This document shows positions 1 to 55,200 of a stretch of 64,000 nucleotides of DNA, piece after piece. The notes below the pieces were generated by a model, which was not told the origin of the DNA, ran no database searches, and worked only from the letters and a program-made list of their open reading frames with translations. The first letter of the stretch is position 1. Each line of letters begins with the position of its first letter. A program made the position numbers and the translations under genes. The DNA is from Syncephalis fuscata (taxonomy: Eukaryota > Zoopagomycota > Zoopagomycetes > Zoopagales > Piptocephalidaceae): the NCBI GenBank assembly GCA_025786725.1, contig JAHLTZ010000001.1:558001-622000 (forward strand), read 5' to 3'.

Positions 1-183
1 TCTTACAGCAGCTTTTTGCCCTTTAACCCGACATCAGACGTTAATGCTATATGGCATACTTTTATTCCTTATGAACATCAGTTGGATGCCACATCCACTA
101 CAAGCCCACGCACAATAATGACTACGTCAGACTGCAATCATTTGACTTTCAGCCCGATGAGCACATTTTTACTGCGTCATTAA
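1..183 (+). CDS. C-terminal fragment of an unidentified protein (partial)
   Basis: Frame 1 is open from the window edge to a TAA at 181-183, giving a 60-residue C-terminal tail that includes FLPFNPTSD and IWHTFIPYE. The composition is balanced and protein-like, unlike the AT-rich DNA after it. A TTACAG at 3-8 could be a 3' splice site, in which case the last exon starts at 9. The rest of the gene lies outside the window. I do not recognise the family. Confidence 0.45.
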   Translation, partial: SYSSFLPFNPTSDVNAIWHTFIPYEHQLDATSTTSPRTIMTTSDCNHLTFSPMSTFLLRH

Positions 184-13898: not shown

Positions 13899-14234
13899 AT
13901 GAAGGCATCAACTATTGCTATTTGCGCCCTTGCCGCCATCTTCATCGTCGGCACCACTATGGTCGATGCAAAGCCAATGCCAACTCCAGGAAATCCGGCC
14001 GATGACAAAGCAAAGGCTCAGTATCGAAAGGATATTCAAAAGTCATTAGACGACATACATGCCCGTCAAAATGACATAACTAAGAAGCTTAAATACTATG
14101 AAAGCCAAGTCAAGACCCCTACGACTAGTACCGAAATTTCCAAACTTAAAATGAGCTTACCCAGTTGTCAGCGAGCGAAAAGAACCTTCAACACGATCTC
14201 GACACCCATCAATAAGCATACAGCAAAACTCTAG
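13899..14234 (+). CDS. Small secreted protein, coiled-coil, unknown function
   Basis: A signal peptide (MKASTIAICALAAIFIVGTT, cleavage probably after VDA) is followed by a Pro-rich KPMPTPGNPADD and a helical segment with heptad spacing (KDIQKSLDDIHARQNDITKK). Single-exon frame of 111 residues. From about 14161 the annotated frame loses its helical character, while another frame reads QLSASEKNLQHDLDTHQ, which would continue the coiled coil. A one-base error or decay is therefore possible. It sits 405 bp outside the left arm of the inverted duplication and has no counterpart beside the right arm. Family not recognised. Confidence 0.6.
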   Translation: MKASTIAICALAAIFIVGTTMVDAKPMPTPGNPADDKAKAQYRKDIQKSLDDIHARQNDITKKLKYYESQVKTPTTSTEISKLKMSLPSCQRAKRTFNTISTPINKHTAKL

Positions 14235-15018
14235 AAATGCAGGCTTAAGACGCAATTAGTTCTGGCATCAAATCTAAACATTAAGCTTTGTTAATTTCTG
14301 TAACTCAATATCTATTTTCATGGCTCATTTAAATTACACAACCATACAATCATTACATAATGCAGGACATTTCATTTGGTTCAAACTATTATTTAGTCAA
14401 TACCAGCAAATAAACATCTTGAGCTATTATATTGTTATTGTTTGTCTTATTGTCTTATCCTTTTTAATTTTCTAGCTATTTAAAGCTATAGGTATTGTTT
14501 AAAACTAACAATATTGGTACATAAAATAGGCAATAATGAATTGTGTTCATACAATTATATTATCTAATGACCATATTAATACTTATGATTAGTAAATCTA
14601 TTAGCACTATTGATTTTATTAAATAGTAGAATTTAAATTATTTATAAATTAATGATGCTTTTTAGTTAATTAAATAAAAATAAAATATACCATTTAATCG
14701 ATAGCTAATCGATTACTATTTTAAAATGTGAATTTTGGATAAATTATGTATAAACACTGTTTTAATTATCAACATCTAATTTAGATGATATAATTATGCT
14801 TATTCAATATTGCTATTAAAGCTTAACTCTATATTTCAATGTATAATACAGTTCATTTTACTTTATATTATATGTAGATCTAAATTTGTAAATCTACAGA
14901 TATCTTAATGCAATTTCTAACATCTCAATGTATTCAATATTGCTATATAAATAACAAAATTTAAAGTAACTATTTAAATTTTATAGCTCATTTATTCCAA
15001 TGTGCCATAACTAATGCA

Positions 15019-16669
15019 TTAAAGTTTAGCACGCGGTATGTCATGGATGGAACGCACATAGTTTGAATTGATCTCTGCCAAATTAGCACAGCCTAATTTA
15101 ATTTAATATATAGTCTTCACTGTTTAGTTATTAACAATCTACTTACCGGCCAATGCCATCGTGTTGACAAATTCTGTCTGCAATATCTCCAAAAGCATCC
15201 GCAATCCATCCTCCCCTACAGTATCATTAGTATTATTAACGTCAATATTGCATATTACTATAGTCACTGCCACTTACACCATAGGCAAGTCTACAATAAC
15301 AGTTAGAACCAGTGTTAGCAGCCCTGTCTTGATGTCAGTTGGTAACTCACCCCCATAATACTGGACGTCCAATAAACACCTAATTGCATATAAATATCAA
15401 AAACGCCTTGCAATCCGCTAATATCACTTACTGCATTGGCACCAAGTGCAAGAGCCTTAAACACATCAGAGCCGTGTCGGATACCACCATCAGTGTAGAT
15501 TTCTAAACGGCCTTTTACTGCCTTCACTATTTCTGGCAGGGCATCGATCTATCGTTGCATAGTAATCAGCCTACAGCACAGCTGCTGATTCGTGACTACT
15601 CACTGTTGCTAGTGCACCATCCAACTGGCGACCGCCATGGTTGCTGACCCAGATGGCATCAACACCATACTGGCATGCCAGCTCAGCATCCTCTGGTGCC
15701 ATGATTCCCTTAAGTACAATTGGTAGCCTGGTAATTGATTTCATCCAAGCAATATCCTTTTCCCAACACAGTGTCATGTCGGCCGTGTTGCCAAATGCCT
15801 CGGAAAACGTTTTTTTGTTAGCGGCAATTTTGCCTGTTAGACGAGCAGCTGCTCTGGCCGAGCCTGTAGTTATTCCATGCTTTGGATCAAAATTGGCCAG
15901 TTTCAATGGAGACGGAAGCTGGAACTGGTTGCGTGCATTGGCAAATCGACGACCTGTAACATTTCATTCATATCAGTGCAATGATGCATTATACTGATAA
16001 ACAGTGTCTAGTTACCCAATAATGGTGCATCTACAGTAAGTACCAATGCTTTGTAGCCAGCCGCTACAGCCAATTGTCAACTTGTGTTTATTATGCTATA
16101 ATAGTCAACACTACCTTCTGCCCTGCGAATAAGCTCCTCAGAAATGCTGCGGTTTTGGAACACATAGAGCTGGAACCAGTTGGGCGTATCGACACCTGCT
16201 ACTTTGCGAACATCCTCAAGGCTAGTTGTCGCGTAGGTTGATAGCGTCATAAGAGTGCCAAACTTGGCAGCAGCTATTGACTTGCAAATAAGCCGCTAGA
16301 TTATAGCCAGTCTTCAGTACTTACCCGCTGCTGTAGCCAACTCTCCTTGTTCATGAGCCATACCGTGCATTGCAGAAGGTGCTAGACATATAGGCGAGCG
16401 TACCTTTGCACCCAACAATGTGCAGCACGTATCGATTTTTGATACATCACGTAAAATGCGCGGCCTTAGCAAATATCTACGCGCCAAAGTCAATGGTCTG
16501 TCAAATGGTAGCGTCCTACAAGTAAGATTTACCGTTTATAGGCCTGCTCATTATCCTGCATGGTCTCTTCTTCGTTGGCACCAGAGGCATAGTAGTCCCA
16601 CATGGCGCGAGGCAGGACCTGTTTGGCATTGGCCTCGAAATCGTTTAGACAAATAGGTACAGTGCTCAT
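15019..16669 (-). CDS. FMN-dependent alpha-hydroxy-acid oxidase/dehydrogenase, left copy (possible frameshift)
   Basis: Reverse-complement twin of the gene at 53083-54735, with the same exon pattern and key motifs ([37 protein letters not shown]). Next to the penultimate splice site this copy reads CTCCCC at 15211-15216 where the right copy has one more base. With the usual GTAAGT donor this shifts the last ~45 residues out of frame. The overlapping upstream donor (GTGTAAGT) could restore the frame with one glycine fewer. It is therefore either damaged, spliced slightly differently, or a sequencing error. Confidence 0.75.
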
Positions 16670-17121
16670 TGTAGTGAAATGGCAAGTTGAATGCTGGAAA
16701 GAATAAGGTGGTGGGTAAGTAATAATGACAATCCATAAATAGATAGTCAATTTAATGAGATCGCTGTTGTGACCTGAATAATTCGGAAATATCAGGCAAT
16801 TCTTAATGCCTGTTGGCTATTGGATAGAAATCAAACATGGGCATAATTGTAACAGTTTGATCAAATATATTTAAAATGAAACCATGTTTATTACTATAAG
16901 CCTGCATAGTTGAATAGGCGCAACTGGATACACGCTTGCTGGAAATATAATGGTGTCGTTGCTTAAAGTTGAATAAACCGAAGCATTGATTAGAGCTTGG
17001 TATATGAATAGACTGAACGATGGTTGTTAAATGGTCTTGCTCACTACCGAATATATACCTAAAGCGTATTGCACTAGCAACTTTATTTACAATACCAATG
17101 CTAGCGCCTCAAAAGTGCCAG

Positions 17122-18484
17122 TTAATCTAAATTTATAAATATGTACAACATATGCCGTATAGTTAGTGCACAGACCAATCATATGCAATACCACTTACCT
17201 TCTATTAATATCAATTATCAAGTACATAATATGAATAGCATATGCTTAGCATAGTTAAATAATATACGATGCCACTTACGAGCTATTAGTACAAATTATT
17301 AAATATATAAGATACATAGCATATGTTTAGCACATAGTTAATCGATATAAATCACACTTACTAACTATTAATGCACGTTGTCATGCACATGCAGTGTACA
17401 GAATATGTTTAGCAAATAACTAATTAATGTACCGTACTACTTACAGCCTATTTATACAAGTTATTAGACACGCGCAGTGGATAAGACATGCTTAGTATAC
17501 AGCCAATTAATATAGAATGCCACTTACCAGCTATCAATAAAAGATATTAAACATGTGCAGTACACGGCATGTACTTAGTAGCAATAATTAAAATAAAACA
17601 TCACTTACGAGCTGTCGATATAAACCAATGCATATGGTGCATAACAAATATTTAACACATGGTTAATTAATATACAATATCACTTACGGGCTATCAATGC
17701 AGGTCATTAAACACATACAGTAAACAAAATATATTTAGAATATAGCTAGTTACTACACAATCCCACTTACCGGCTATTAACACGGGTTATTAGACATGAA
17801 AAATGTATGGTATATGTTTAGCATATAGCTAAATAATATACAACATCGCTTACCTTCTATTAACACAGATAATTAAGCATACAGTAAACAAAGCATATTT
17901 AGAATATAGTTAATTAATGTACAATTTCACTTGCCAGCTATAATAAGCATTAAACATGCACAATACATAATGTGTTTAGTATATAAATAATTAGTATATA
18001 AAGGCACTTACCAACTAGTAACGTTAGTTCGATAATGCAAATAGTATTTAGTTATACAAATGGCTAGTTGTTTCTATTTTAGTTTACCTCCTATCAACAC
18101 AAATTCAGTATATTAGTATTTTTAATTCAGCATTTTATTTGTTGCTAGACTTACTTTTAGCCAATGGTGCTGATTGCCAATACATAAACAAGCAATACTT
18201 GATTAGCACACCAATAACCGTATTTTTAAAACTTACCAACTGTTTACATATGTTTGCCATATGCATAAAGGTACCCAGTAAGCGCTGGAACAATAATGCT
18301 TAATCACGGCTTACCAGCTAATAACATCATTGATTAGACATGGTGATCGAAAGTATACCGATTTGCACAATTATTGTAATTGAAACATACCACGACGGAT
18401 CAGATTTGGCCTAGCATCCACAGTGGCTGTGCTGGCCACAATAGCCACAAGGATAGCGCAGACAACGGCAATAGAAAACTTCAT
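17122..18484 (-). CDS. Micro-exon secreted peptide gene, left copy
   Basis: Minus-strand twin of the gene at 51265-52630, with the same signal-peptide exon (ATG at 18484), the same AG-NNN-GTAAGT micro-exon series and the same stop (17122-17124). Differences seen are confined to introns, for example GGCAATC here against GGGCAAATC in the right copy upstream of the 15-nt exon. Both copies therefore predict the same 51-residue precursor. See the right copy for the exon list and reasoning. Confidence 0.7.
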
Positions 18485-18735
18485 GATGGTGCAGATTTGT
18501 TGGAATAAACAAGCAAAATAAACAGCAGAGCTTAGTGAGTATTCAGAAGAAAGTAGAATGTGATGAGGAGCAGTTAGTTGAATGTGTATATTCTGCGGCC
18601 TATTTAAGTCAATGATTAGCTGAGACAACAATATGCTTTACTATACAGATTCTATCATTGATATGCAATGTGCATCGACAAAGCGCATTCGTATACTAGT
18701 TCAAGGCATACGTATACCAACATACTGATGATGTG

Positions 18736-19103
18736 CTATTTTGAAGCCAATCCCTTTGCTTCAATCTGCTCGGCAATTACACAAATAGCATGGCAGTTGC
18801 AATCATCCAACACATTGCCATAGGAACACATCTGCCAATTTTCACTATGCTGTTGTGCAATTCAAGCATGCGTGCAAACTGAATATGTTGGTTCTACAGA
18901 AACAGTGATGATACGCCACTACACCTTTGCTGTTGCTTCTGCCAACGAATTCCATGATCAAATATGCATGCATCCCAAATGGTGCTCAGCGCCGACATAA
19001 CAGCGGCACCAATGCATTGCGCTTGTATTTCTTTACAGGTATTTACTGTTCTATATAGAATAGTCGCAGCTTTCCAGTTGTAAAACTTTACCGCTTGATT
19101 CAT
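18736..19103 (-). CDS. Small Cys-containing protein, left copy
   Basis: Twin of the two-exon gene at 50646-51013. It encodes the same predicted protein (start MNQAVKFYNWKAATILYRT, end EQIEAKGLASK). It lies about 250 bp upstream of the micro-exon gene on the same strand. Function unknown. Confidence 0.4.
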
Positions 19104-19929
19104 ACGTCAATTCAATCTGAATTGTGGCACAACTTAAAATAAACTGTCTATTTTAGCACAGCAATATTAGCAGTCTACACAGCCATTATTTTTAATTGAT
19201 TCTAGTGCTAATTACTGGCTGCTCCATATATATGTAGTTTCAATAATAAAGCATTGTAACCAAGCACAAATGTAACTGGTTGTTTAGTTTAAAGCAACAT
19301 AGATAGTCCAGAATGTATATGCTGTAATACACAAATAATAGGACACGCCACAAGCAATTCCATCAAATACAACCAGTTTGAATGGACTTTGGAAATGCAT
19401 GGTATACCAGTCGGTTATGACCATATGCACAAGTGCCAATTCATTCATAATTTATTGTAAGATTGCACATTTACTGGTTTTTATTTGTAGTGTATGTTAT
19501 GCAATGTTTTTCTATTTAGAAGATACAAATTGCTATTCTAAGGTTCTGATGTAATTATTACGAACGCTATGCATAGTGCAAATTGTGCATCCTAATTGAT
19601 GTGCTTTGGTGCATCTGTTCATTTATGTCGAATATTTGGCCACAGACAGTAAACGATACCATACAATCACAAAATTCGTGCTATCTTATATACCATGTTA
19701 TTATTAGCCTATTTTTACTTATATTACCAAATAAATGATAGCAATATTATTTAAATATTACTGATACTTTTTTATTTATTGTTCACTGTGTCAAATGCTC
19801 TAAATGGTAATAGAGCCTTAATAATAGCTATATATTATAAGAATTGGTGGAATTATCTAATTAATGAAACTGTAGCCGTATGAATAAAGTATCATTTATT
19901 AGTTCAAATATTAACGTCATTAGGTTCCA
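19104..19929. other. Intergenic region within left arm
   Basis: About 830 bases between the small Cys gene and the 3' end of the phospholipase-like gene. No gene seen. Its twin is 49821-50645. Confidence 0.5.
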
Positions 19930-21207
19930 TTATGCAGATGCTTTGATACGTGTCAGATTAATGCGATTGGCATATTCTACTGCTTCCTTCAACAAGCCAA
20001 GTGTGTTGTCGTAGTAGTCGACCTTGACGCGATGCAAATGGGTAAACTTGGTGATATAGGCAGTAACCACCTCGACAAGATATTTACGAGATTTCTTCTC
20101 GAGACGTTCCAGACAGATGGCTGGCTGCTGAAGGTGCTTGAGGTCGTTTATGACGGTTGAAGCAACAATATCGTAGCCGTAGTCAATACACTGCCACAAC
20201 TTCTCATCGGCGCTCGTCTCAGTTGCATGTTTAATAAACGAATTCTTAAGCGTAACATCGTTGACGGCATAACGTGCGTAGTTCCAGCTTTGCTGAAGGT
20301 ATGTATCACGATCCAGCATCCAGGCTGGTCGGCTGGCTTCTTCAAACGCCGATATGTGGCGGCCAAAAATGACGACTACTCGTTTGTTTTGTTGAACCAT
20401 CTCGCCAAGTGTAGGCCATGGTGCGCTAGCATCCTTGCGTTCAAACAGCATGCCCGACAGATACTGATCGAGCTTTTGCTTAATGCCTCGTGCTGTAACG
20501 CCTCGGTCGCCGTCATAATCGCCATACTCAAGTACAATTACCTCACCGGGGTTTTCATTAAGGAATTTGCGCACCTCTGCTAGATGGGTGTCGAGTGGCG
20601 CTCCAAGTGCACGAGTTGGCCCCTCGCCATGGCAAGTAACTACTCGGCCGCTATTGTCGACACATGTGTCAACATCAAACAAACGGATGCCATCCTCCAG
20701 CTGTTTGCCAATGCTGTGGCCGCGCTGATTCTCCCAGAAGCATTCTCGCGCCCATTGTGGCATGTGGCCGCACATCATCGGAAGACCCTTGGTGCATACG
20801 CTGATAGGTGCAGTGCAGACCTTCTCCCATCCATTGCAGACCTTGCTAGTGGCAGTGCATACCTTGCTCCAGCCCTTACAAAGCACCTTGAACGGGCCTG
20901 GTAGTTTTTTGGTACATTTGGACTCAGTCTTGGTACACACGTCCGTCCATCCCTTTGTGCACTTGTCTTCGCTGGCTCCGCAGAATTTCTGGGCATTTTC
21001 GCACTTATTGATGCCGGAACAGTCGGGTGTTAGATTATACGCTGCCGAGTTGTGTGTGCCGGCAAACGTGTACTGGTCGAATGGCAGGCGGCAGTAGTCG
21101 GCTGATCCGTTGCACTTGGCTGGTGTACCGTTGACTTGTGCCATGCTTCCCGCTAGCAGGAAAGCAACCGCCATAAATACCGATGCTGATATCGCTGGAC
21201 GAACCAT
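19930..21207 (-). CDS. Secreted PI-PLC X-domain-like phosphodiesterase, intact left copy
   Basis: Single exon, 425 residues, first ATG at 21207. A signal peptide (MVRPAISASVFMAVAFLLAG) precedes a PI-PLC X-type TIM-barrel: first catalytic His in FAGTHNSAAYN (H52), EDGIRLFDVDTC, second His in TCHGEGPTR (H193), then VIVLEYGDYDGD and RVVVIFGRH. Residues ~65-156 are a Cys-rich insertion with three related units (CTKGWTDVCT, CKGWSKVCT, CNGWEKVCT). The Y domain of eukaryotic signalling PLCs is absent, as in bacterial-type and extracellular fungal PI-PLC-like proteins. Likely a secreted phosphodiesterase acting on phosphoinositide or GPI-like head groups; the substrate is not shown by sequence. Confidence 0.85.
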   Translation of the reverse strand: MVRPAISASVFMAVAFLLAGSMAQVNGTPAKCNGSADYCRLPFDQYTFAGTHNSAAYNLTPDCSGINKCENAQKFCGASEDKCTKGWTDVCTKTESKCTKKLPGPFKVLCKGWSKVCTATSKVCNGWEKVCTAPISVCTKGLPMMCGHMPQWARECFWENQRGHSIGKQLEDGIRLFDVDTCVDNSGRVVTCHGEGPTRALGAPLDTHLAEVRKFLNENPGEVIVLEYGDYDGDRGVTARGIKQKLDQYLSGMLFERKDASAPWPTLGEMVQQNKRVVVIFGRHISAFEEASRPAWMLDRDTYLQQSWNYARYAVNDVTLKNSFIKHATETSADEKLWQCIDYGYDIVASTVINDLKHLQQPAICLERLEKKSRKYLVEVVTAYITKFTHLHRVKVDYYDNTLGLLKEAVEYANRINLTRIKASA

Positions 21208-22277
21208 GATGAATATCTTCAGTAATAGCAATAATAGGTGTAGCTAAGTAAAATGACGCTGTTTAATAGTCGTGTAGAATAAGCCTTTTAGTTATAGATT
21301 GGTAGAGTCGTAATCAATATTAATGGGATGCTGGTATAGCAGCTGAACCATGGTTTTGGTAGCTAGTTATATACCCAAAATCGAGTAGCACCTGCTTCGT
21401 TTTTGCCTGTGTTTATTGCATTTCCATGCTACAAATAAAGACTGGATTTATTGTTAATCTTTGTTTTTGCTTAAGGCCTATGGACACTGTATATTGCCAT
21501 CGATCAGTAGCCAGTATAAATTACAGGCCTAGTTGTTTCATTTACACGATTGAACAGATATTTTATTGTGTATTTGAGTAAAGATGTTTGGATAGCACGT
21601 TAATCCTTAATTGCTTTTGTCGTGCTGTTTTAATTGCTTAAATGTAAACTATACAATATATAACATCAGTGGTACGCGACAATACAGCTAAATAGCTTAG
21701 AACCAAATTAAACCCAGCCATCATGCACAGCTTAGCCATAAACCATATTTGTGCTTTTATTCATAGCTTCACTATTGCGGCAATCCAATCATTAAGGCTA
21801 TTTGGGATCGGGTAGTCGCTAACAATAGCTTGGAATAATTCAGCCGTAGTGAATCTACATAGTACTGGTTGATTGAACTAAACAGCTAATAAACTTGTTT
21901 TAATTTGGCAAAGTAAATAGCATCGGCCTATTCTACTCAAGTACTTGTCTTTACTATATCTATATTTACATATATATATTCTTATCATTTATTTAGTTTA
22001 TTACGTTATTAATCCAGGAAATAGCTGTAATAGCAATTACAAGTGTACACGATGTATTTGCAGCAATGTTGTCATATTGATTAATTGTTGTGCTACTTTA
22101 CTAAATATGTTATTTTACAACATATCACGTGACCAATAGTATTTCGTAGGTTCCAGCAAAATGCTCAATCTTCATCAATACCAATGTCATTTGCCCCTGA
22201 ATAGCAAATTTGCTGTTGTTGGGTGTCAACGAGCGTTTACCGCATTTGCATTCTCAATGCGTATCAACAGTGCGTAA
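21208..22277. other. Intergenic inner end of left arm
   Basis: About 1.07 kb upstream of the phospholipase-like gene, shared with 47474-48543. It contains a short open frame at 21945-22139 rich in Ile/Tyr/Leu. I read this as AT-rich noise even though the arm is duplicated. Confidence 0.5.
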
Positions 22278-22345
22278 TTTAATTGCAATCATTATTATTA
22301 TCCAAAAACACTTTAACATAATATGTAGTGTATGTATAAAAGCCT

Positions 22346-47246: not shown

Positions 47247-47473
47247 TGTAAGTATATGCACTCTAGTCGATCGTTATGAAAAGCGACTGTTTTGTATAGC
47301 CAGGTTTGTTGGACTAAGAAACGTGGTGGTTTGATAGAAGGCAGTGGCTTGGCAGCCAGTGAATGCAGGGAGATTGTTGTTACAAGTATTTAAAAGTACC
47401 TGTCGTAAAAGTGTGCGTATATACGTATATGAGGAATAAAGTGGTTAGCATTTTCAGAAACGGCAGCATTGAG

Positions 47474-48543
47474 TTACGCACTGTTGATACGCATTGAGAA
47501 TGCAAATGCGGTAAACGCTCGTTGACACCCAACAACAGCAAATTTGCTATTCAGGGGCAAATGACATTGGTATTGATGAAGATTGAGCATTTTGCTGGAA
47601 CCTACGAAATACTATTGGTCACGTGATATGTTGTAAAATAACATATTTAGTAAAGTAGCACAACAATTAATCAATATGACAACATTGCTGCAAATACATC
47701 GTGTACACTTGTAATTGCTATTACAGCTATTTCCTGGATTAATAACGTAATAAATTAAATAAATGATAAGAATATATATATGTAAATATAGATATAGTAA
47801 AGACAAGTACTTGAGTAGAATAGGCCGATGCTATTTACTTTGCCAAATTAAAACAAGTTTATTAGCTGTTTAGTTCAATCAACCAGTACTATGTAGATTC
47901 ACTACGGCTGAATTATTCCAAGCTATTGTTAGCGACTACCCGATCCCAAATAGCCTTAATGATTGGATTGCCGCAATAGTGAAGCTATGAATAAAAGCAC
48001 AAATATGGTTTATGGCTAAGCTGTGCATGATGGCTGGGTTTAATTTGGTTCTAAGCTATTTAGCTGTATTGTCGCGTACCACTGATGTTATATATTGTAT
48101 AGTTTACATTTAAGCAATTAAAAAAGCACGACAAAAGCAATTAAGGATTAACGTGCTATCCAAACATCTTTACTCAAATACACAATAAAATATCTGTTCA
48201 ATCGTGTAAATGAAACAACTAGGCCTGTAATTTATACTGGCTACTGATCGATGGCAATATACAGTGTCCATAGGCCTTAAGCAAAAACAAAGATTAACAA
48301 TAAATCCAGTCTTTATTTGTAGCATGGAAATGCAATAAACACAGGCAAAAACGAAGCAGGTGCTACTCGATTTTGGGTATATAACTAGCTACCAAAACCA
48401 TGGTTCAGCTGCTATACCAGCATCCCATTAATATTGATTACGACTCTACCAATCTATAACTAAAAGGCTTATTCTACACGACTATTAAACAGCGTCATTT
48501 TACTTAGCTACACCTATTATTGCTATTACTGAAGATATTCATC
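47474..48543. other. Intergenic inner end of right arm
   Basis: Twin of 21208-22277. It is the promoter side of the phospholipase-like gene. No gene seen. Confidence 0.5.
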
Positions 48544-49820
48544 ATGGTTCGTCCAGCGATATCAGCATCGGTATTTATGGCGGTTGCTTTCCTGCTAGCG
48601 CGAAGCATGGCACAAGTCAACGGTACACCAGCCAAGTGCAACGGATCAGCCGACTACTGCCGCCTGCCATTCGACCAGTACACGTTTGCCGGCACACACA
48701 ACTCGGCAGCGTATAATCTAACACCCGACTGTTCCGGCATCAATAAGTGCGAAAATGCCCAGAAATTCTGCGGAGCCAGCGAAGACAAGTGCACAAAGGG
48801 ATGGACGGACGTGTGTACCAAGACTGAGTCCAAATGTACCAAAAAACTACCAGGCCCGTTCAAGGTGCTTTGTAAGGGCTGGAGCAAGGTATGCACTGCC
48901 ACTAGCAAGGTCTGCAATGGATGGGAGAAGGTCTGCACTGCACCTATCAGCGTATGCACCAAGGGTCTTCCGATGATGTGCGGCCACATGCCACAATGGG
49001 CGCGAGAATGCTTCTGGGAGAATCAGCGCGGCCACAGCATTGGCAAACAGCTGGAGGATGGCATCCGTTTGTTTGATGTTGACACATGTGTCGACAATAG
49101 CGGCCGAGTAGTTACTTGCCATGGCGAGGGGCCAACTCGTGCACTTGGAGCGCCACTCGACACCCATCTAGCAGAGGTGCGCAAATTCCTTAATGAAAAC
49201 CCCGGTGAGGTAATTGTACTTGAGTATGGCGATTATGACGGCGACCGAGGCGTTACAGCACGAGGCATTAAGCAAAAGCTCGATCAGTATCTGTCGGGCA
49301 TGCTGTTTGAACGCAAGGATGCTAGCGCACCATGGCCTACACTTGGCGAGATGGTTCAACAAAACAAACGAGTAGTCGTCATTTTTGGCCGCCACATATC
49401 GGCGTTTGAAGAAGCCAGCCGACCAGCCTGGATGCTGGATCGTGATACATACCTTCAGCAAAGCTGGAACTACGCACGTTATGCCGTCAACGATGTTACG
49501 CTTAAGAATTCGTTTATTAAACATGCAACTGAGACGAGCGCCGATGAGAAGTTGTGGCAGTGTATTGACTACGGCTACGATATTGTTGCTTCAACCGTCA
49601 TAAACGACCTCAAGCACCTTCAGCAGCCAGCCATCTGTCTGAACGTCTCGAGAAGAAATCTCGTAAATATCTTGTCGAGGTGGTTACTGCCTATATCACC
49701 AAGTTTACCCATTTGCATCGCGTCAAGGTCGACTACTACGACAACACACTTGGCTTGTTGAAGGAAGCAGTAGAATATGCCAATCGCATTAATCTGACAC
49801 GTATCAAAGCATCTGCATAA
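48544..49820 (+). CDS. Secreted PI-PLC X-domain-like phosphodiesterase, right copy with C-terminal frameshift
   Basis: Same single-exon gene as 19930-21207, with both catalytic His motifs (GTHNSAAYN, TCHGEGPTR) and the Cys-rich insertion. A G is missing in CTGTCTGAAC (about 49638; left copy CTGTCTGGAAC). The frame changes after QQPAICL and ends early at 49761 instead of 49820, replacing the last ~60 residues. One substitution also changes Gly20 to Arg at the end of the signal peptide, which could affect cleavage. This copy may be inactive, or the base may be a sequencing error. Confidence 0.85.
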
Positions 49821-50645
49821 TGGAACCTAATGACGTTAATATTTGAACTAATAAATGATACTTTATTCATACGGCTACAGTTTCATTAATTAGATAATTC
49901 CACCAATTCTTATAATATATAGCTATTATTAAGGCTCTATTACCATTTAGAGCATTTGACACAGTGAACAATAAATAAAAAGTATCAGTAATATTTAAAT
50001 AATATTGCTATCATTTATTTGGTAATATAAGTAAAAATAGGCTAATAATAACATGGTATATAAGATAGCACGAATTTTGTGATTGTATGGTATCGTTTAC
50101 TGTCTGTGGCCAAATATTCGACATAAATGAACAGATGCACCAAAGCACATCAATTAGGATGCACAATTTGCACTATGCATAGCGTTCGTAATAATTACAT
50201 CAGAACCTTAGAATAGCAATTTGTATCTTCTAAATAGAAAAACATTGCATAACATACACTACAAATAAAAACCAGTAAATGTGCAATCTTACAATAAATT
50301 ATGAATGAATTGGCACTTGTGCATATGGTCATAACCGACTGGTATACCATGCATTTCCAAAGTCCATTCAAACTGGTTGTATTTGATGGAATTGCTTGTG
50401 GCGTGTCCTATTATTTGTGTATTACAGCATATACATTCTGGACTATCTATGTTGCTTTAAACTAAACAACCAGTTACATTTGTGCTTGGTTACAATGCTT
50501 TATTATTGAAACTACATATATATGGAGCAGCCAGTAATTAGCACTAGAATCAATTAAAAATAATGGCTGTGTAGACTGCTAATATTGCTGTGCTAAAATA
50601 GACAGTTTATTTTAAGTTGTGCCACAATTCAGATTGAATTGACGT
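49821..50645. other. Intergenic region within right arm
   Basis: Twin of 19104-19929. No gene seen. Confidence 0.5.
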
Positions 50646-51013
50646 ATGAATCAAGCGGTAAAGTTTTACAACTGGAAAGCTGCGACTATTCTATATAGAA
50701 CAGTAAATACCTGTAAAGAAATACAAGCGCAATGCATTGGTGCCGCTGTTATGTCGGCGCTGAGCACCATTTGGGATGCATGCATATTTGATCATGGAAT
50801 TCGTTGGCAGAAGCAACAGCAAAGGTGTAGTGGCGTATCATCACTGTTTCTGTAGAACCAACATATTCAGTTTGCACGCATGCTTGAATTGCACAACAGC
50901 ATAGTGAAAATTGGCAGATGTGTTCCTATGGCAATGTGTTGGATGATTGCAACTGCCATGCTATTTGTGTAATTGCCGAGCAGATTGAAGCAAAGGGATT
51001 GGCTTCAAAATAG
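50646..51013 (+). CDS. Small Cys-containing protein, unknown family (two exons)
   Basis: Exon 1 is 50646-50824; an 80-nt intron (GTGTAG ... CATAG) leads to exon 2 at 50905-51013. Total 288 nt, 95 residues, stop TAG. The product has several Cys: TCKEIQAQC, WDACIFDHG, QMCSYGNVLDDCNCHAIC, ending EQIEAKGLASK. No signal peptide is evident at the chosen ATG, so an upstream exon may be missing. The splice is inferred from frame closure and the Cys-rich protein-like second exon; a nearby alternative acceptor gives a different tail. It stands about 250 bp upstream of the micro-exon gene on the same strand. Confidence 0.42.
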
Positions 51014-51264
51014 CACATCATCAGTATGTTGGTATACGTATGCCTTGAACTAGTATACGAATGCGCTTTGTCGATGCACATTGCATATCAATGATAGAAT
51101 CTGTATAGTAAAGCATATTGTTGTCTCAGCTAATCATTGACTTAAATAGGCCGCAGAATATACACATTCAACTAACTGCTCCTCATCACATTCTACTTTC
51201 TTCTGAATACTCACTAAGCTCTGCTGTTTATTTTGCTTGTTTATTCCAACAAATCTGCACCATC

Positions 51265-52630
51265 ATGAAGTTTTCTATTGCCGTTGTCTGCGCTATCCTT
51301 GTGGCTATTGTGGCCAGCACAGCCACTGTGGATGCTAGGCCAAATCTGATCCGTCGTGGTATGTTTCAATTACAATAATTGTGCAAATCGGTATACTTTC
51401 GATCACCATGTCTAATCAATGATGTTATTAGCTGGTAAGCCGTGATTAAGCATTATTGTTCCAGCGCTTACTGGGTACCTTTATGCATATGGCAAACATA
51501 TGTAAACAGTTGGTAAGTTTTAAAAAATACGGTTATTGGTGTGCTAATCAAGTATTGCTTGTTTATGTATTGGGCAAATCAGCACCATTGGCTAAAAGTA
51601 AGTCTAGCAACAAATAAAATGCTGAATTAAAAATACTAATATACTGAATTTGTGTTGATAGGAGGTAAACTAAAATAGAAACAACTAGCCATTTGTATAA
51701 CTAAATACTATTTGCATTATCGAACTAACGTTACTAGTTGGTAAGTGCCTTTATATACTAATTATTTATATACTAAACACATTATGTATTGTGCATGTTT
51801 AATGCTTATTATAGCTGGCAAGTGAAATTGTACATTAATTAACTATATTCTAAATATGCTTTGTTTACTGTATGCTTAATTATCTGTGTTAATAGAAGGT
51901 AAGCGATGTTGTATATTATTTAGCTATATGCTAAACATATACCATACATTTTTCATGTCTAATAACCCGTGTTAATAGCCGGTAAGTGGGATTATGTAGT
52001 AACTAGCTATATTCTAAATATATTTTGTTTACTGTATGTGTTTAATGACCTGCATTGATAGCCCGTAAGTGATATTGTATATTAATTAACCATGTGTTAA
52101 ATATTTGTTATGCACCATATGCATTGGTTTATATCGACAGCTCGTAAGTGATGTTTTATTTTAATTATTGCTACTAATTATATGCCGTGTACTGCACATG
52201 TTTAATATCTTTTATTGATAGCTGGTAAGTGGCATTCTATATTAATTGGCTGTATACTAAGCATGTCTTATCCACTGCGCGTGTCTAATAACTTGTATAA
52301 ATAGGCTGTAAGTAGTACGGTACATTAATTAGTTATTTGCTAAACATATTCTGTACACTGCATGTGCATGACAACGTGCATTAATAGTTAGTAAGTGTGA
52401 TTTATATCGATTAACTATGTGCTAAACATATGCTATGTATCTTATATATTTAATAATTTGTACTAATAGCTCGTAAGTGGCATCGTATATTATTTAACTA
52501 TGCTAAGCATATGCTATTCATATTATGTACTTGATAATGGATATTAATAGAAGGTAAGTGGTATTGCATATGATTGGTCTGTGCACTAACTATACGGCAT
52601 ATGTTGTACATATTTATAAATTTAGATTAA
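51265..52630 (+). CDS. Micro-exon secreted peptide gene: 17 exons, fourteen of 3 nt
   Basis: Exon 1 (51265-51358) encodes a signal peptide (MKFSIAVVCAILVAIVAST) and ARPNLIRR, ending in phase 1. Then follow: ctg 51432, ttg 51510, a 15-nt exon 51583-51597, gag 51662, ttg 51738, ctg 51815, aag 51896, ccg 51979, ccc 52062, ctc 52141, ctg 52222, gct 52305, tta 52388, ctc 52470, aag 52551, and a last exon at 52626 with TAA 52628-52630. Positions are first bases. Introns are 64-80 nt with GTAAGT-type donors (one GCAAGT at 51818) and AG acceptors. Every internal exon is a multiple of three. Full splicing adds AVAPLAKR and VAEAAPPGFTQD, giving a 51-residue precursor with RR and KR sites suited to Kex2-like cleavage. 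Function unknown; intron retention stops after GMFQLQ. Confidence 0.75.
51741..52625 (+). repeat. Tandem intron array (introns 6-16 of the micro-exon gene)
   Basis: Eleven consecutive units of about 75-83 bp, each an intron plus a 3-nt exon, share an alignable pattern. It runs GTAAGTG-, then a TATATTAATTA-like block, a GCTAAACATAT-like block, a TAATAAC-like branch-point region about 20 nt from the end, and TTAATAG. The copies are diverged from each other but clearly related. The same array occurs in reverse in the left arm, roughly 17125-18010. Confidence 0.8.
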
Positions 52631-53082
52631 CTGGCACTTTTGAGGCGCTAGCATTGGTATTGTAAATAAAGTTGCTAGTGCAATACGCTTTAGGTATATA
52701 TTCGGTAGTGAACAAGACCATTTAACAACCACCGTTTAGTCTATTCATATACCAAGCTCTAATCAATGCTTCGGTTTATTCAACTTTAAGCAACGACACC
52801 ATTATATTTCCAGCAAGCGTGTATCCAGTTGCGCCTATTCAACTATGCAGGCTTATAGTAATAAACATGGTTTCATTTTAAATATATTTGATCAAACTGT
52901 TACAATTATGCCCATGTTTGATTTCTATCCAATAGCCAACAGGCATTAAGAATTGCCTGATATTTCCGAATTATTCAGGTCACAACAGCGATCTCATTAA
53001 ATTGACTATCTATTTATGGATTGTCATTATTACTTACCCACCACCTTATTCTTTCCAGCATTCAACTTGCCATTTCACTACA
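52631..53082. other. Intergenic region upstream of hydroxy-acid oxidase
   Basis: About 450 bases. Near the end, TTCTTTCCAG at 53051-53059 could close an intron in the 5' UTR of the oxidase gene. Confidence 0.45.
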
Positions 53083-54735
53083 ATGAGCACTGTACCTATT
53101 TGTCTAAACGATTTCGAGGCCAATGCCAAACAGGTCCTGCCTCGCGCCATGTGGGACTACTATGCCTCTGGTGCCAACGAAGAAGAGACCATGCAGGATA
53201 ATGAGCAGGCCTATAAACGGTAAATCTTACTTGTAGGACGCTACCATTTGACAGACCATTGACTTTGGCGCGTAGATATTTGCTAAGGCCGCGCATTTTA
53301 CGTGATGTATCAAAAATCGATACGTGCTGCACATTGTTGGGTGCAAAGGTACGCTCGCCTATATGTCTAGCACCTTCTGCAATGCACGGTATGGCTCATG
53401 AACAAGGAGAGTTGGCTACAGCAGCGGGTAAGTACTGAAGACTGGCTATAATCTAGCGGCTTATTTGCAAGTCAATAGCTGCTGCCAAGTTTGGCACTCT
53501 TATGACGCTATCAACCTACGCGACAACTAGCCTTGAGGATGTTCGCAAAGTAGCAGGTGTCGATACGCCCAACTGGTTCCAGCTCTATGTGTTCCAAAAC
53601 CGCAGCATTTCTGAGGAGCTTATTCGCAGGGCAGAAGGTAGTGTTGACTATTATAGCATAATAAACACAAGTTGACAATTGGCTGTAGCGGCTGGCTACA
53701 AAGCATTGGTACTTACTGTAGATGCACCATTATTGGGTAACTAGACACTGTTTATCAGTATAATGCATCATTGCACTGATATGAATGAAATGTTACAGGT
53801 CGTCGATTTGCCAATGCACGCAACCAGTTCCAGCTTCCGTCTCCATTGAAACTGGCCAATTTTGATCCAAAGCATGGAATAACTACAGGCTCGGCCAGAG
53901 CAGCTGCTCGTCTAACAGGCAAAATTGCCGCTAACAAAAAAACGTTTTCCGAGGCATTTGGCAACACGGCCGACATGACACTGTGTTGGGAAAAGGATAT
54001 TGCTTGGATGAAATCAATTACCAGGCTACCAATTGTACTTAAGGGAATCATGGCACCAGAGGATGCCGAGCTGGCATGCCAGTATGGTGTTGATGCCATC
54101 TGGGTCAGCAACCATGGCGGTCGCCAGTTGGATGGTGCACTAGCAACAGTGAGTAGTCACGAATCAGCAGCTGTGCTGTAGGCTGATTACTATGCAACGA
54201 TAGATCGATGCCCTGCCAGAAATAGTGAAGGCAGTAAAAGGCCGTTTAGAAATCTACACTGATGGTGGTATCCGACACGGCTCTGATGTGTTTAAGGCTC
54301 TTGCACTTGGTGCCAATGCAGTAAGTGATATTAGCGGATTGCAAGGCGTTTTTGATATTTATATGCAATTAGGTGTTTATTGGACGTCCAGTATTATGGG
54401 GGTGAGTTACCAACTGACATCAAGACAGGGCTGCTAACACTGGTTCTAACTGTTATTGTAGACTTGCCTATGGTGTAAGTGGCAGTGACTATAGTAATAT
54501 GCAATATTGACGTTAATAATACTAATGATACTGTAGGGTGAGGATGGATTGCGGATGCTTTTGGAGATATTGCAGACAGAATTTGTCAACACGATGGCAT
54601 TGGCCGGTAAGTAGATTGTTAATAACTAAACAGTGAAGACTATATATTAAATTAAATTTAGGCTGTGCTAATTTGGCAGAGATCAATTCAAACTATGTGC
54701 GTTCCATCCATGACATACCGCGTGCTAAACTTTAA
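53083..54735 (+). CDS. FMN-dependent alpha-hydroxy-acid oxidase/dehydrogenase (glycolate/lactate oxidase family), right copy
   Basis: About nine exons from ATG 53083 ([20 protein letters not shown]). Family landmarks: [85 protein letters not shown]. The active site [10 protein letters not shown] carries the catalytic His and Arg. FMN phosphate binding is [20 protein letters not shown] then IGRPVLWG. Stop 54733-54735. The enzyme oxidises 2-hydroxy acids to 2-oxo acids, passing electrons to O2 (giving H2O2) or another acceptor. It ends IPRAKL, so a peroxisomal PTS1-like C-terminus (AKL) is visible and suggests peroxisomal import. Confidence 0.9.
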
Positions 54736-55200
54736 TGCATTAGTTATGGCACATTGGAATAAATGAGCTATAAAATTTAAATAGTTACTTTAAATTTTGT
54801 TATTTATATAGCAATATTGAATACATTGAGATGTTAGAAATTGCATTAAGATATCTGTAGATTTACAAATTTAGATCTACATATAATATAAAGTAAAATG
54901 AACTGTATTATACATTGAAATATAGAGTTAAGCTTTAATAGCAATATTGAATAAGCATAATTATATCATCTAAATTAGATGTTGATAATTAAAGCAATGT
55001 TTATACATAATTTATCCAAAATTCACATTTTAAAATAGTAATCGATTAGCTATCGATTAAATGGGATATTTTATTTTTATTTAATTAACTAAAAAGCATA
55101 ATTAATTTATAAATATTTGTAAAATTGCTTAACCAGATATGTTTATTCTTATCAATATAGTATTATATTCAATGTTAATGATGCTTATCCTCCCATATTC
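54736..55200. other. Outer end of right arm and junction
   Basis: About 465 AT-rich bases containing the outer arm boundary near 55113. No gene seen. Confidence 0.5.

Follow-up and report, generated by a model that had tools for sequence, protein, structure and literature searches.

Arrays of three-nucleotide exons in a putative secreted-peptide gene family of Syncephalis fuscata

Our analyses identify, in the window (the whole 64-kb stretch of Syncephalis fuscata DNA analysed here), a gene at 51265..52630 on the plus strand in which fifteen internal exons, all of them 3 nt long but for one of 15 nt, lie between exon 1 and a terminal exon. The best explanation is that this gene belongs to a large family of secreted-peptide genes, in which, very probably, a conserved signal exon precedes a variable part encoded at one codon per 3-nt exon, spliced intron by intron, released as a peptide through Kex2-like processing and diversified by duplication of units. 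The anatomy of the array, the size of the family, the length of the exons, the reading frame across their junctions, the conservation of the splice sites and the variability of the codons come directly from the computation.

Anatomy of the window gene

The structure was read directly from the sequence and was recovered by a gene model, with the following parts.

51265..51358, plus strand: exon 1 (94 nt, donor GTATGT), with start codon, predicted signal peptide and a pro-segment that closes with RR-G; exon end in phase 1; 38 homologous copies
51432..51434, plus strand: 3-nt exon CTG, donor GTAAGC
51510..51512, plus strand: 3-nt exon TTG, gene model
51583..51597, plus strand: 15-nt exon CACCATTGGCTAAAA, giving APLAK(R), a dibasic cleavage-like site; comparable exons in 24 of 37 modelled genes
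51662..51664, plus strand: 3-nt exon GAG, donor GTAAAC
51738..51740, plus strand: 3-nt exon TTG, gene model
51815..51817, plus strand: 3-nt exon CTG, GC donor (GCAAGT)
51896..51898, plus strand: 3-nt exon AAG, donor GTAAGC
51979..51981, plus strand: 3-nt exon CCG, gene model
52062..52064, plus strand: 3-nt exon CCC, gene model
52141..52143, plus strand: 3-nt exon CTC, gene model
52222..52224, plus strand: 3-nt exon CTG, gene model
52305..52307, plus strand: 3-nt exon GCT, gene model
52388..52390, plus strand: 3-nt exon TTA, gene model
52470..52472, plus strand: 3-nt exon CTC, gene model
52551..52553, plus strand: 3-nt exon AAG, gene model
52626..52630, plus strand: coding start of the terminal exon, AT followed by the stop TAA (52628-52630), sequence read and gene model

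Exon 1 encodes MKFSIAVVCAILVAIVASTATVDARPNLIRR plus one base, and the introns measure, in order, 73, 75, 70, 64, 73, 74, 78, 80, 80, 76, 78, 80, 80, 79, 78 and 72 nt (range 64-80). The spliced open reading frame of 156 nt predicts a precursor of 51 residues. An earlier note on this DNA had proposed the run of fourteen 3-nt exons and one 15-nt exon behind a signal-peptide exon, and direct reading, model and shuffles bear it out; the model also reproduces the 156-nt frame, the 51-residue precursor, the phase 1 of the internal exons and the stop two bases into the last exon that the note had described, the terminal exon being forced by the model to start with two bases and a stop and hence not constituting independent evidence. 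The description of the array as AG-NNN-GTAAGT sites needs a correction: an exact GTAAGT follows 10 of the 14 triplets, the remaining donors being GTAAGC (2), GTAAAC (1) and GCAAGT (1). All acceptors are AG, and the donor of intron 1 is GTATGT. An AATAAA hexamer is located at 52665-52670, downstream of the stop. The 51-residue precursor had no match in Pfam or among solved structures at E values up to 1, and Rfam and tRNA scans of the 64-kb window returned none.

The window also holds a second copy of the gene, and the copies belong to an inverted duplication whose arms, 7.65 kb long and 99.7% identical, lie about 25 kb apart.

17122..18484, minus strand: second copy of the window gene with an identical predicted peptide; exon 1 at 18391-18484
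47468..55123, plus strand: arm of the inverted duplication with the window gene and its neighbours; other arm at 14632-22283

The duplication also carries an FMN-dependent dehydrogenase gene and an open reading frame with a weak match to PI-PLC-X (21.9 bits, against a curated cut-off of 23.1). Elsewhere in the window, at 13899-14234 on the plus strand, a 111-residue open reading frame starts with a similar signal peptide (...VDAKP) and has a continuous coding part, for which no Pfam match was found. Some homologs of exon 1 likewise lie in open frames, and the signal exon may be common to other secreted proteins.

Three-nucleotide exons far exceed chance

In the window, AGNNNGTAAGT occurs 23 times (both copies and both strands counted), compared with 1.86 +/- 1.35 occurrences in 100 shuffles, the largest of which reached 7. 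The genome, screened over 28,950,602 bases (28.95 Mb) in 299 contigs, contains 2,314 matches to the triple pattern GTAAGT-(50..80)-AG-NNN-GTAAGT-(50..80)-AG-NNN-GTAAGT, while the reversed control gave 0 and a middle exon set to 4 nt only 11. Adjacent AG-NNN-GTAAGT pairs number 2,986, against 8 in the reversed control. Across the window and 37 fetched loci (L009-L045), an AG lies exactly 3 nt upstream of 397 of the 404 in-array GTAAGT sites, and a chain model with no preference for length assigned 3 nt to 422 of 426 exons in 44 arrays, near-identical copies included. The spans of the modelled genes hold 708 3-nt exons where strict pairs number 437, a ratio that extrapolates to some 4,800 3-nt exons genome-wide, an estimate drawn from loci picked for their similarity to the window and counting duplicate, false and broken exons. 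Modelled genes contain from 4 to 51 exons of 3 nt each.

The intervals between triplets bear the signature of spliceosomal introns, with GT(GC)...AG ends, a consensus GTAAGT donor and a conserved ATTAATAG end. Their very regular length (median 80 nt, 617 introns) might be taken to favour excision by non-spliceosomal means, for instance as internal sequences eliminated at the DNA level, but these classical ends speak against it, as does the neighbouring FMN-dehydrogenase gene, an ordinary gene in which an intron placed by eye at 53428-53478 shows the same GTAAGT...CAATAG signals as the arrays; we regard such excision as extremely improbable.

Adjacent triplets are very probably read together in phase 1

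If consecutive triplets are joined in phase 1, each junction creates a codon from the last base of triplet i and the first two bases of triplet i+1. Genome-wide, these codons were counted by pattern, independently of any gene model. Among the 2,986 adjacent pairs the upstream triplet is NNT in 850, and the downstream triplet starts with AA or AG (ARN) in 381 and is GAN in 129. TAA or TAG nevertheless arises across the junction only 8 times where 108.5 are expected, and TGA 0 times where 36.7 are expected, giving 8 in-frame stops overall against about 145 (Fisher P about 7e-69); the depletion still has a P of 4e-14 with counts thinned five-fold for relatedness. The sense control TGG, for which the downstream triplet GGN occurs in 177 pairs, is instead enriched about twofold (106 against 50.4), an excess to which blocks recurring at regular intervals on contigs C19 and C24 contribute. 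Half of the eight exceptional stops fall on contig C234 (loci L029-L032), where the models of L029, L030 and L032 place the stop at the final 3-nt exon of the array and the L031 model continues into weak sites.

A similar picture emerged from 508 junctions in 29 of the 37 modelled genes, 8 near-identical copies having been dropped. Phase-1 stops number 2 against 12.1 expected, none of 5,000 re-pairings being as low, and in both cases the stop lies at the end of the array, at its last 3-nt exon. A phase-2 reading was rejected, stops there occurring at chance rate (52 against 47.5). Phase 0 yields no stop triplet in 508, re-pairing being uninformative for that phase. In 37 unique arrays with 327 junctions, stops amount to 1 against 4.5 in phase 1 and to 25 against 24.8 in phase 2.

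These results support the conclusion that consecutive triplets are joined in array order and translated in phase 1, and we see no other explanation for them. Because stops across junctions are nearly absent and TGG is enriched, the triplets are taken to be joined and translated as spliceosomal 3-nt exons. The suggestion of the earlier note that each of them adds one residue gains support from the same two counts and from the 3-nt length of nearly all exons. Shuffling, the control with a 4-nt exon and the frame test lead us to reject chance or a simple minisatellite origin. A more elaborate version holds that the array is a minisatellite within one long intron, exon 1 being spliced to the terminal exon while the intervening sites act as decoys or in recursive splicing and the triplets are absent from the mRNA. 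The units are evidently products of tandem duplication, their introns being alike, and a direct join of exon 1 to the terminal exon is also in frame and provides a stop; triplets i and i+1 would then, however, never be read together, yet their junctions avoid stops and are enriched in TGG, and no such avoidance appears in phase 2. This alternative is accordingly considered highly improbable.

A different possibility is that the exons are real and that each transcript includes a different subset of them, generating combinatorial peptides. Being in phase 1, nearly all 3 nt long and flanked by near-identical splice sites, the exons could be skipped with the frame preserved, but the avoidance of stops between immediate neighbours indicates that neighbour-to-neighbour joining is common. 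We consider optional inclusion somewhat unlikely, and it would be a mode of the codon-by-codon splicing that we favour rather than its opposite.

Quality of the gene models

Models were obtained for 37 genes, L021 being left without one. They comprise 795 internal exons, of which 708 measure 3 nt and 87 have other lengths, 35 of the latter not being multiples of three. Only 11 of the 37 stay in frame until a stop that lies precisely at the terminal exon of the model; the remaining models reach a stop one junction earlier (a T joined to AA), include a false exon (weak sites or an inserted repeat) or start from an exon 1 that is broken. A 15-nt "exon" CACTATTCTCTTGAA/CACTATTCTCTTAAA, modelled in L016, L027, L034 and L043 and within a 25-nt exon in L015, was rejected as lying inside a repeated element inserted in the arrays. 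A repeated element with CACTATTCTCTTGAAGTTGGTCCCAATTG or close variants occurs within or adjoining the arrays of L012, L015, L016, L027, L034 and L043, and ARAGORN predicted no tRNA in these six loci.

Triplets differ more than the introns around them

Units made of an intron and its codon were compared in 91 ungapped, non-overlapping pairs of close relatives from 24 loci. At the three triplet positions, differences occur in 42, 33 and 37% of the pairs (mean 37%), whereas the average for intron bases is 9.4%, and 78% of intron positions stay under 15%; divergence of the triplets is thus about four times that of the introns. The acceptor AG differs in 0% of the pairs and the donor bases in at most 2.2%. 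Where the flanks of a pair differ by 3-6% (mean 4.2% over 53 non-overlapping pairs in 17 loci), the share of differing triplets is 51%, or 35% once the large loci L016, L020 and L021 are removed (26 pairs, 14 loci), and at a flank divergence of 7.4% the proportion is 70% (70 pairs), or 59% after the same removal (37 pairs). Independent change at the rate of the flanks would predict about 12% and 21%, respectively. For near-identical units, with flanks differing by 0.6% over 131 disjoint pairs, the share falls to 3%. A plain dN/dS above 1 was not established as the cause of the fast triplets, codon position 3 being raised too and the triplets of near-identical units differing so little.

This pattern bears on whether the arrays are relics, formerly translated but with most copies now non-functional. 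Decaying copies do stand beside intact ones, exon 1 being frameshifted in L010, L042 and the first copy of L041 and lacking a start codon in L044, and repeats are inserted in six loci; tandem expansion points the same way. Genome-wide stop avoidance is nevertheless almost complete, and the splice sites have stayed fixed while introns diverged by 10% and more. Furthermore, in L020/L021, among the pairs listed, exon 1 differs by 2% where introns differ by 9% and aligned triplets by 51%. That the family consists mostly of relics therefore seems to us very unlikely. A conserved signal exon followed by a fast-changing tail is the typical look of secreted effectors, toxins and self-recognition peptides.

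A large family with a common signal exon

Including the two of the window, 38 copies of exon 1 were identified in the window and the fetched loci, and a signal-peptide query gave at least 150 homologs genome-wide (150 scored of 346 candidates), some of which lie in longer open frames of 100-153 residues, so that not all need be microexon genes. Most copies read MKLSIAVVC...VDAxPxxxRR, and of the 34 copies that are readable (4 of the 38 are not), 28 end in RRG. In 24 of the 37 modelled genes an exon of 6-27 nt ending CTAAAA, CTAAGA, ATAAAA or TTAAAA is modelled near the start of the array; it contributes K and, if GA comes next, opens an R codon with its last base, giving a KR-type site. By sequence pattern, the 5' exon would encode a signal peptide, and one or more putative dibasic sites separate it from the predicted mature part, as in Kex2-processed precursors. 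This layout of RR and KR suggests Kex2-type maturation and secretion.

Among the array codons P, A, T, S, G and R are abundant, and cysteine is at 0.6% (29 genes). Their third positions are more pyrimidine-rich than those of ten other chosen open reading frames of the window, which was counted as a point against the proposed explanation. In L023, on the minus strand, a block of exons is repeated, consisting of the 15-nt CTACGCCGATATCAA and then TTT, mostly GGA or CAG, and CTC or AAC, and would encode a repetitive peptide.

Discussion

In the explanation that we propose, exon 1 would provide the conserved signal peptide and a pro-segment that usually closes with RR, a second basic site (...KR) would often come from a short exon, and the remainder of the peptide would be assembled at one residue per in-phase 3-nt exon, each set between spliceosomal introns of about 80 nt, until the terminal exon supplies the stop. 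With introns this short and regular, recognition probably takes place across each intron, most likely through its strong GTAAGT donor and its ATTAATAG acceptor. The earlier note had thought that exon definition would be demanded; for introns of 64-80 nt, what is established about short introns makes recognition across the intron likelier, and the objection that a 3-nt exon leaves no room for enhancers would then fall. The removal of one intron would give the next donor a longer upstream exon, and exonic sequence would be unneeded for splicing, leaving the codons free to change. The secreted precursor would probably then be cut behind RR and KR by a Kex2-like protease, which would free the variable peptide. 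Arrays would lengthen or shorten by tandem duplication of intron and codon units, and because the unit is symmetric (3 nt, phase 1), its gain, loss or skipping would keep the frame. We infer from the computed features that the arrays are actually spliced in this way, by intron definition, and that their products are cleaved by Kex2, secreted, and act as diversifying secreted peptides or effectors.

A further step, which we advance tentatively as possible rather than probable, is that the arrays constitute an engine of diversification, in which splicing information resides wholly in the introns, units are duplicated and swapped, codons outpace introns, and optional inclusion may make each gene a combinatorial library of peptides.

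Fungal Kex2-processed secreted peptides have a signal peptide and dibasic sites followed by a variable peptide, the known ones being encoded by ordinary exons. The arrays resemble them in the predicted signal peptide and the dibasic sites preceding the variable peptide, and depart from them in devoting one exon to each codon. A repeated core occurs in L023.

The occurrence of genes built from many small exons has been reported in other lineages. In schistosomes, micro-exon genes (MEGs) have microexons below 36 bp, 26 of 33 being symmetric in MEGs 26-32 (PMC4671649), and, in the portions of that account available to us, they encode secreted proteins whose signal peptide is in most cases encoded by the 5' flanking exon, with a central part of mostly symmetric microexons, as proposed here. 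Compared by description, they differ in that nearly all internal exons of the present genes are exactly 3 nt and that the terminal exon here codes for two bases and a stop; the long 3' flanking exon of MEGs would compare with that terminal exon including its UTR. In aphids, the 37 exons of KQY1a, 6-416 bp each, are spread across 45.7 kb (PMC7495047), and the cassette (KQY/KHI) and bicycle effectors of aphids, as far as the portions of that paper describe them, likewise combine a conserved signal-peptide region with divergent parts made of small exons. Bicycle genes share the many small internal exons of a single phase, theirs almost all starting at codon position 2 according to the sections seen of PMC9168663, which is also the phase of the arrays; bicycle proteins carry CYC motifs, whereas cysteine makes up only 0.6% of array codons here, a comparison of composition rather than a motif scan. 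The portions of these three descriptions available (PMC4671649, PMC7495047, PMC9168663) contained no run of 3-nt exons. Single 3-nt exons are described in excerpts on mouse Ncam (PMC8042270), where one is spliced, and on Drosophila homothorax (PMC7392893), in both cases as lone exons and not as protein-building runs like those reported here. Among the literature matches listed, judged by title and the start of the abstract, none concerned runs of 3-nt exons in any organism, subscription journals and bioRxiv lying mostly outside the scope of that search. By description and by cysteine content, we file the array genes outside the schistosome and aphid families, as a new and extreme form of micro-exon gene.

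Conclusions

Single 3-nt exons are known as rarities, and one genome here seems to hold several thousand of them. The whole variable part of these proteins would be spliced codon by codon, which tests the lower size limit of exons and raises the question of how the spliceosome handles exons too small to contain exonic signals. Genes of this kind would probably escape standard gene-finding programs and RNA-seq aligners. For the biology of the family, the arrays may represent a new route to hypervariable secreted peptides, varied one residue at a time.
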